Shown piece by piece: positions 12,641 through 32,284 of a DNA stretch of 33,023 nt. A program made the position numbers and the translations under genes. Below the pieces are notes generated by a model. That model was given only the letters and a program-made list of their open reading frames with translations, was not told the DNA's origin and ran no database searches. The stretch's first letter is position 1; each line of letters starts with the position of its first letter. Source of the stretch: Solirubrobacterales bacterium (GTDB taxonomy: Bacteria; Actinomycetota; Thermoleophilia; Solirubrobacterales; Solirubrobacteraceae); the NCBI GenBank assembly GCA_019247075.1, contig JAFAPR010000106.1, forward strand, positions 1 to 33,023. The letters are read 5' to 3'.

Positions 12641-12644
<4 letters not shown>
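11838..12644 (-). CDS. trpA: Tryptophan synthase alpha chain
   Basis: TrpA splits indole-3-glycerol phosphate into indole and glyceraldehyde 3-phosphate and passes indole to TrpB. The 268-residue TIM barrel shows the catalytic Glu in [16 protein letters not shown] (Glu 53, with Asp at 60 and 64), VPDLPFEE, and the phosphate-binding end [12 protein letters not shown]...[12 protein letters not shown]. The frame is open further upstream into trpB, but the GTG at 12642-12644, which overlaps the trpB stop (GTGA), gives the normal N-terminus [10 protein letters not shown]. It is the last tryptophan enzyme gene of the cluster. Confidence 0.97.
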
Positions 12645-13818
<1,174 letters not shown>

Positions 13819-13819
<1 letters not shown>

Positions 13820-14523
13820 CAAATTGATGTTCGGGCGCGCGCATGCGCGCGCCCGCCGGCCGGAACATGTTCCGGCCGGGGCCGGCGCACATGTGCGCCG
13901 GCCACCGCTTTTGCAAACTGCTCCAGCTTGTGCGGGTCCTTGCGGCCCGGCGCGCTCTCAACGCCCGAGGCGACGTCGACCGCGAACGGCTTCACGATCG
14001 CGATTGCCTGCGCCACGTTGTCGGGCCTCAGCCCGCCCGAGAGGATCACCGGCACGGGACCGCGGTGGCCGCGCGCGAGCTCCCATTCGAACGCCTCCCC
14101 GCTCCCGCCCCGGCGCCCCGGAACGTGGCTGTCCAGCAGGTGATAGTCCGTCCGGAACCTAACGAGGGCCTGGATGTCGGCGCCCGACCGGACGCGCACC
14201 GCCTTGATGACCTTGCACCCGGTGCGCCGTGCCGCCTCCGCACAGAACGATGGCCCCTCGTCGCCGTGCAGCTGAACCGCGGTCAGCCCGATCTCCTCGC
14301 TTCGCCGCACCAGATGGTCGAGCGTGGGGTTGACGAACACGCCCACCACCTCCATGCGGCGCTTCAGTTTCGCGGCGATCTCGGCCGCGACCGCGGGGGG
14401 ACAGCGACGCGGCGAACGCGGCCATAGCAGCAGGCCGATTGCCCACGCGCCGAGCTCATAGGCGCGCTGGGCGTCATCCAGATTGGTGATTCCGCAGAAC
14501 TTGATCCTCGGGTCACTGTGCAT
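13819..14523 (-). CDS. trpF: Phosphoribosylanthranilate isomerase with a palindrome-encoded C-terminal extension
   Basis: TrpF performs the Amadori rearrangement of phosphoribosylanthranilate to CdRP. The 234-residue product shows [12 protein letters not shown] (catalytic Cys 10), [19 protein letters not shown] and [22 protein letters not shown] (conserved Asp and Ser region). The family normally ends near KLEQFAKAV; here 24 extra codons follow, rich in G, A, R, P and H, encoded by three contiguous palindromes at 13832-13903, and then TSI and the stop. Removing the 72 bases keeps the frame and gives about 210 residues, the usual length. ATG at 14521-14523 was chosen; a GTG three codons upstream is possible. 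The barrel itself looks intact, so activity is expected. Confidence 0.93.
13832..13903. repeat. Three contiguous perfect 24-bp palindromes inside trpF
   Basis: Bases 13832-13855, 13856-13879 and 13880-13903 are each perfect 24-bp palindromes with no spacer between them. The half-sites (5' to 3', plus strand) are CGGGCGCGCGCA, CCGGCCGGAACA and GGCCGGCGCACA, each followed by its exact reverse complement. Symmetry ends at exactly 24 bases in each case, and every centre is RCATGY (GCATGC, ACATGT, ACATGT). The 72 bases are in frame with trpF and encode three eight-residue blocks with His at a fixed place (GAHV, PEHV, RAHA). Each unit could fold as a very stable hairpin in RNA or a cruciform in DNA. 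No similar long RCATGY palindrome was found elsewhere in the window. Confidence 0.97.
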
Positions 14524-14602
14524 CACTCCCACATCGTAGGGTTGAGCCGCAGTGCAAGTGGCAGACGCCGAGGCGCGCGAGCGCCGCCGCGGTCAAGCCA
14601 GG

Positions 14603-32203: not shown

Positions 32204-32216
32204 TGCGACTGGTCCC

Positions 32217-32284
32217 GGCTACTGGACGACGATGTTCACGAGCTTGTCCGGGCTACTGGACGACGATGTTCACGAGCTTGTCCG
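32217..32284. repeat. Exact 34-bp tandem duplication across the leuS stop codon
   Basis: Bases 32217-32250 and 32251-32284 are identical and directly adjacent. On the minus strand each copy encodes the last leuS codons (DKLVNIVVQ and TAG in the copy nearest leuS). The upstream copy holds the working stop codon (32253-32255). The second copy lies after the stop and is out of frame by one base because 34 is not a multiple of three, so it is untranslated leader between leuS and holA. Perfect identity suggests a recent slippage event, or an assembly artefact. Confidence 0.93.

Follow-up and report, generated by a model that had tools for sequence, protein, structure and literature searches.

The 33,023-nucleotide stretch analysed here (the window; Solirubrobacterales bacterium, contig JAFAPR010000106.1 of assembly GCA_019247075.1) carries on its minus strand a gene that, from its sequence and its neighbours, we take to be trpF, encoding a phosphoribosylanthranilate isomerase of 237 residues (positions 13819 to 14532), and trpB (PALP domain, 12641 to 13822, minus strand), which overlaps the trpF stop. 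Near its 3' end trpF reads through an element of 72 bp (13832 to 13903) that consists of three abutting palindromes, each perfect and exactly 24 bp long. In the trpF sense the first is GGCCGGCGCACATGTGCGCCGGCC (13880 to 13903), the middle one CCGGCCGGAACATGTTCCGGCCGG (13856 to 13879) and the last CGGGCGCGCGCATGCGCGCGCCCG (13832 to 13855), and their centres are GCATGC, ACATGT and ACATGT. The element is bordered by CGGT (13904 to 13907, minus strand), on the weakly conserved side where other copies have the motif GGRA, and by AACATC (13826 to 13831, minus strand), this copy's version of the end motif AACA; read from the GGRA side to the AACA side, it runs on the minus strand, in the sense of trpF. 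A palindrome scan and translation confirmed two statements of an initial annotation of this DNA, namely that three abutting perfect 24-bp palindromes with RCATGY centres lie in frame near the 3' end of trpF, and that deleting the 72 bp restores a KAV-TSI end with the same stop. As read in trpF, the block supplies 24 codons, and the protein ends in KAV, 24 added residues and TSI.

Beyond these three, no palindrome of at least 18 bp was found in the 33-kb window. One hundred second-order Markov simulations yielded three 24-bp palindromes in total, or 0.03 per window, so that three abutting ones lie far beyond chance. The trpF frame is preserved because three 24-bp units make 72 bp. The C-terminal tail of TrpF that holds the block varies in length and sequence between relatives, and the reading frame of this copy is incidental, since a 72-bp insert in a variable tail merely lengthens the protein. 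The initial annotation had also proposed a comparison of trpF orthologues: at the trpF-trpB junction, genome G008 has a 72-bp triple palindrome with other arms and genome G009 a palindrome-plus-linker version, whereas the remaining relatives read there show no array. Because the G008 and G009 assemblies have arrays at the same place in trpF, an assembly error is unlikely.

A dispersed family of 24-bp palindromes

The genome of the window (G000) is a 3.88-Mb draft of 367 contigs, 87% complete. The initial annotation had asked for further copies there, and a BLAST search with the 72-bp query returned 83 matches (expectation value, E, up to 10, both strands counted); 22 loci hold arrays of the same build, with two to four units each. 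A search for units centred on RCRYGY gave 117 non-redundant arrays (96 triple, 16 double, four of four units and one of five), a count that, like the array statistics below, covers arrays averaging fewer than two mismatches per unit and units with up to three mismatches. Their 341 units, 285 of them perfect, 46 with one mismatch, nine with two and one with three, comprise 239 distinct sequences, and 189 of the 224 unit junctions are gap-free while 28 overlap by one base. Because the RCRYGY centre served to locate the units, the centre statistics of this search are partly built in, and it was therefore repeated without a centre condition, with at most one mismatch per unit and a spacing of 23 to 25. 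This yielded 130 arrays: 101 triple, 20 double, seven of four units, one of five and one of seven. CATG stands in the middle of 380 of their 383 units, with RCATGY in 374 and TCATGA in five. The many dispersed copies, mostly in threes, with uniform 24-bp units and a common centre, bear out the suggestion that a dedicated element rather than chance is at work. The seven-unit array lies at L329:1428-1595 of genome G160, from another genus of the family, and has AACC on its right flank.

The family belongs to a group of soil bacteria within the Solirubrobacterales. A covariance-model search, in a comparison set of one genome per species in which the named carriers are metagenome-assembled drafts, found the array in 10 of 61 genomes at E 0.001 and, across the order, in 31 of 232 (that of the window among them) at E 1e-5. 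These carriers all belong to the window's family and to four of the 54 genera. A pattern scan of 84,980 species genomes returned 88 stretches. Sixty-eight of them are triple palindromes, and the 62 whose titles were read come from records named as Solirubrobacterales, Solirubrobacteraceae, Actinomycetes or Actinobacteria (one of these arrays, L196, has a broken third unit); the other 20 stretches are non-palindromic, and the 18 with titles read come from other named groups. In a tree of one gene fragment, drawn open and covering 25 of the 28 genomes of the genus, nine carriers fall within a group of 14 with support 90/91. The other five members of this group are non-carriers by the covariance model; G019, which is among them, shows an array of two units where a contig ends.

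The genomic context of the arrays was assessed with gene calls from a simple codon-position model trained on six window genes. Four of 101 arrays lie at locus edges; of the 97 that were classed, 10 fall within predicted genes and the rest between genes that are co-directional (42), convergent (28) or divergent (17). The window copy was scored as co-directional because of a 15-bp tolerance; moving it brings the inside-gene count to 11 and leaves about 86 of the 97 arrays outside predicted genes. The emphasis of the initial annotation on insertion in frame within a gene is therefore not borne out, and where a frame is kept it follows from the 72 bp. Among the 42 co-directional arrays, 13 have the polarity of the genes, 19 the opposite polarity and 10 are undecided, so there is no strand bias.

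A second dispersed repeat was also observed, of about 60 to 66 bp (GGATGACTCGGGCG...GAGGCYGGATGCCGAGC...) and hairpin-forming, which sits in either orientation between two 24-bp palindromes to make a 131-bp composite. It is located at L114:1937-2003 and L022:6667-6725, and also at L006, L013, L016 and L033. The repeat occurs in 18 of 41 genomes, including some where the model detects no triple palindromes; it is repeated, for example, at the trpF-trpB junction of genome G010 (L123).

Centres, arms and block copying

The most telling feature of the family, which the initial annotation had missed, is that arm sequences vary from copy to copy while the two arms of each palindrome change in step, base for base. 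The outer positions of the half-site are mostly G or C of either kind, and the outer six have an entropy of 1.1 to 1.8 bits. In 12 aligned clean copies, 99.3% of cells were paired and 73 cells were two-sided, compared with 20.8 +/- 3.4 in shuffles, and none of five measures of co-variation was reached by any of 500 shuffles. When the structure was slid by one to three columns, pairing fell to 31 to 46% of cells. Folded as single-stranded DNA, each strand forms three separate 10-bp hairpins (-44.8 kcal/mol, z -7.2). Because the arms stay matched while their letters change, these results suggest that the preserved trait is the folded shape and not the sequence.

We next consider how the arms change. 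Whole-array neighbours were used for the counts, because two similar single units may have arisen independently. Among 83 gap-free triples, 33 nearest-neighbour pairs differed by 112 two-sided changes and 10 one-sided changes, the latter an under-count because only units with up to three mismatches were recognised. Seven of the 10 one-sided changes fall at the outermost pair. Mismatches within units are also scarce; most sit at that pair and most are something other than G-T, which made wobble asymmetry unusable as an RNA test. By class, the two-sided changes are 53 flips between G:C and C:G, 42 transitions and 17 other transversions. A stem evolving one step at a time through G-U is expected to favour transitions and to disfavour such flips, and the excess of flips over transitions therefore speaks for one arm being copied from its partner, or for compensation that is very rapid.

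The array also has a polarity, because its three slots differ in sequence, and its usual layout is 5'-GGRA, three 24-bp palindromes and AACA-3'. Both end motifs are weak. Of 101 arrays, 38 have AACA no more than 8 bp from the ends, compared with 2 and 3 at distances of 30 and 60 bp; for GGAA the counts are 21 near the ends and 4 and 7 at those distances.

The array is dispersed, reaches unlinked sites by being copied as one block, and stays self-complementary while its arms change. Two loci in genome G025 share an identical 72 bp, and their flanks agree at 11 of 30 and 9 of 30 positions. The window copy and a second copy in its genome (G000:C10) are one compensated pair apart, C:G to T:A, with flank identities of 10/30 and 5/30. 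A single compensated pair likewise separates L179 from L191, on two contigs of one assembly, and the 70-bp arrays L047 and L083, from two genomes. Across the seven closest array pairs, which differ by 0 to 4 bases, all nine changed base pairs are two-sided, so the earliest differences visible between copies are already two-sided; these nearest-array comparisons omit the loci from some follow-up searches, so that no array is counted twice. Since arrays that are identical or one pair apart recur at unlinked places whose flanks are unrelated, the array must be copied as a whole, and identical copies of this kind are a mark of mobile elements.

Interpretation and likeness to known repeats

We favour the explanation, at a probability of about 0.55, that the array is one copy of a REP-like (repetitive extragenic palindromic), non-autonomous mobile DNA element of the Solirubrobacterales that is recognised as a hairpin and moved by a non-Y1 enzyme. 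What is recognised would be the single strand folded into three 10-bp hairpins with a CATG loop, whatever the sequence of the arms, and an enzyme outside the Y1/TnpA_REP group would insert it into short intergenic gaps without detectable target duplication. A polymerase that uses one arm as the template for its partner, by template switching or quasi-palindrome correction, would restore arm identity in one step, and we propose that both members of a pair change together for this reason. Pairing or copying of the arms must matter, because we can name nothing else that makes variable arms follow each other. The copying of the array as a unit, its end motifs and its weak tie to transcription together favour a DNA element over an RNA gene.

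A bolder form of this idea, which we put forward only tentatively, is that the heritable identity of the mobile element is the fold itself, three 10-bp hairpins with a CATG loop, with arms that drift freely and are re-copied from each other and an enzyme that recognises the folded single strand and spreads it. Dispersed palindromic repeats are common in bacteria, but those known to us have conserved stems, tags or loops by which they are recognised. In this family the stem sequence is almost free, pairing is kept and one-sided intermediates are few. Hundreds of replicate natural hairpins are thus available for asking whether selection or template switching in a single event lies behind compensatory change, and the family points to a mobiliser that is not a Y1 enzyme.

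Known movers of such hairpins are Y1 enzymes of the REP type. Matches to the Y1 transposase (PF01797) were found in two of the 31 carriers (G157 and, partial, G016), all counted in incomplete drafts, and with no match in the other 29 a Y1 transposase was rejected as the mobiliser. The 25 commonest of 262 Pfam families, from a scan of 137 of the 220 listed flanking reading frames, include no transposase, the rarer families lying outside this count; the commonest neighbours are sigma factors, ParA-like ATPases, tRNA synthetases and similar families. Within 8 bp of the array ends, GTAG was present in 7 of 101 arrays, compared with 6 of 101 at 30 bp out, and CGTC in 1 of 101, compared with 18 of 101. 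Direct repeats of at least 3 bp at the array ends, as a target-site duplication would leave, were seen in 3 of 101 arrays and 2 of 101 controls; those of at least 2 bp showed a slight excess (22 of 101 versus 13 of 101).

These features set the array apart from several established classes. A miniature inverted-repeat transposable element was rejected, as target-site duplications are not enriched, and so was a GTAG/CGTC-tagged REP, in that the tags are not enriched and the stem is not conserved across the family, though the copies are dispersed and mainly extragenic. The arrays also do not fit a Rickettsia palindromic element, which is defined by lying in frame within open reading frames, with about 11 of 97 inside predicted genes. 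Six matches to known Rfam RNAs at E up to 1 in window positions 13600 to 14200 all fall below the gathering score. An intrinsic terminator was rejected as well: the T-tract that should follow its GC hairpin is almost entirely lacking, with TTTT within 10 bases of the hairpins in 1 of 202 flanks, and no terminator-like site was found in 13600 to 14200.

Among the matches listed from the open PMC literature, we recognised no description of such arrays. The closest relatives in kind are the REP, BIME and REPIN repeats with their enzyme TnpA_REP (RAYT), as presented in the excerpted text of PMC8266576, PMC3733652, PMC3116915 and PMC2817692. The excerpts of PMC8266576 and PMC3733652 describe REPs as short, dispersed, mainly extragenic palindromic repeats, sometimes clustered and sometimes in open reading frames, that are thought to be copied within the genome, and some group 3 REPs as perfect palindromes. 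The arrays share with these systems their short, palindromic, dispersed and mainly extragenic repeats. They differ, as far as those excerpts go, in having no tag above background, units of about 24 bp that abut in threes, no Y1 match in 29 of 31 carriers, and arms that co-vary without being conserved around a centre that alone is conserved. With Y1 in 2 of 31 carriers and no enrichment of GTAG or CGTC, we regard the element as working like a REP without being one on the features tested.

Like the Rickettsia palindromic elements mentioned in the excerpt of PMC3733652, the window copy is a palindromic insert that can be read in frame within a gene; here the in-frame case is a by-product of the 72 bp, and the distinction is drawn from location. 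The mitochondrial repetitive hairpin and double-hairpin elements treated in the excerpt of PMC2800124 are also tandem, GC-rich, intergenic hairpins with triple regions and suspected mobility. In the sponge elements of that excerpt, however, substitutions are said to fall in the loop and the stems to be conserved, whereas here the CATG loop is fixed and the stems vary with compensation. Template switching, according to the excerpted part of PMC8794818, can create and maintain perfect stems through multi-base compensatory changes in one event. It is presented there as a mutational process in RNA genes; one-event compensation would be common to both cases, although ours is a dispersed repeat family, and it is from that mechanism that we infer a probable one-step re-matching of the arms.

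Several results weigh against a mobile element or qualify that reading. No mobilising enzyme was found in the Y1 search of the 31 carriers or in the flanking-gene scan. With 100 arrays in each set, the end-motif model reached 387 at the array ends but also 320 on control flanks lying 30 bp away. Decayed arrays (L005, L013, L016, L022, L023) and broken ones (L020, L027 and L029 among them) exist in the family and are under-counted, as are one-sided changes, and strong selection with quick compensation could be an alternative source of the two-sided changes. Inside predicted genes, 8 of 10 arrays follow the polarity of the gene (one is opposite and one undecided), so that independence of transcription is incomplete; four of the eight occupy one orthologous gap (L138, L148, L152, L199). 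In some gaps, the trpF of G000, G008 and G009 being one case, several species have an array with changed arms, a pattern that suits long-retained copies and hot-spots alike. The mean number of differing pairs per 36 is 10.2 in orthologous gaps (26 comparisons) and 13.6 in different gaps (409). The difference is modest, and a shared gap therefore does not always have to trace back to one ancestral insertion. Within one shared gap, L019 has the polarity opposite to that of L047 and L053, which suggests repeated insertion or inversion. Lastly, three gaps (L019, L024, L004) followed through the genus gave no clean empty site. The L019 and L024 gaps are too diverged for a junction to be defined; at the first of them, visual reading of three element-free relatives (L245, L246 and L253, from G023, G022 and G018) shows some other GC-rich DNA of about 30 bp, which may be an array in decay or a hairpin of unrelated origin. 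The flanks of L004 lie together in one stretch only in G000 (C63) and G021 (C374, L059), both of which carry the element between convergent genes, and in other congeners the two halves match different contigs or places.

Alternative explanations

The best-placed alternative, though in our judgement an unlikely one, is that the arrays are functional RNA hairpins at gene ends, acting as direction-independent terminators or protectors of mRNA 3' ends, with pairing under selection and most useful between convergent genes. The median distance from an array is 9 bp to a stop codon (n = 98) and 43 bp to a start codon (n = 76), the window copy lying 13 bp from the trpF stop, and convergent gaps make up 37% of 63 element gaps, compared with 11% of 315 control gaps. 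The hairpins are very stable as RNA (-64.3 kcal/mol), and the changed arms in orthologous gaps and the gene-following polarity of 8 of 10 inside-gene arrays also agree with a role in RNA. However, convergent gaps are equally short without an element (median 18 bp, n = 36) and after its subtraction (21 bp, n = 23), and divergent genes flank 17 of the 97 arrays, in some cases with each predicted start about 20 bp away (L019, L047 and L053, one orthologous gap). The trpF copy lies within a coding operon. Added to this are the near absence of TTTT tracts, the lack of any terminator-like site at the window locus, and the surplus of G:C/C:G flips over G:C/A:T changes (53 versus 42).

Somewhat less probable still is that the arrays are old and immobile, that template-switch correction alone keeps them palindromic, and that new loci arise by local slippage instead of transposition. 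The joint change of both arms, the existence of arrays of four to seven units, and the ability of template switching to build and keep perfect stems, in the excerpt of PMC8794818, would all suit such a history. Against it, identical or one-pair-different arrays, with the same slot order, stand at unlinked sites with unrelated flanks and carry end motifs, which requires copying of whole blocks.

We consider it improbable that the palindromes are operator-like sites at which a DNA-binding protein dimer reads the constant CATG centre: the core in 380 of 383 units found without a centre condition and the fixed, abutting pitch of about 24 bp are what such sites would show, but a protein dimer has no reason to need a base-for-base match of the variable outer arms, whereas pairing or copying of the arms has. 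An assembly or chance artefact, to which the draft, metagenome-assembled nature of the named carriers might lend colour, is refuted for practical purposes by the chance rate of 0.03 single 24-bp palindromes per window and by the separate G008 and G009 assemblies, with arrays of different arms in the same trpF tail.

Apart from the family, the window contains a 34-bp tandem duplication, 94% identical, at positions 32209 to 32276, near the window edge.
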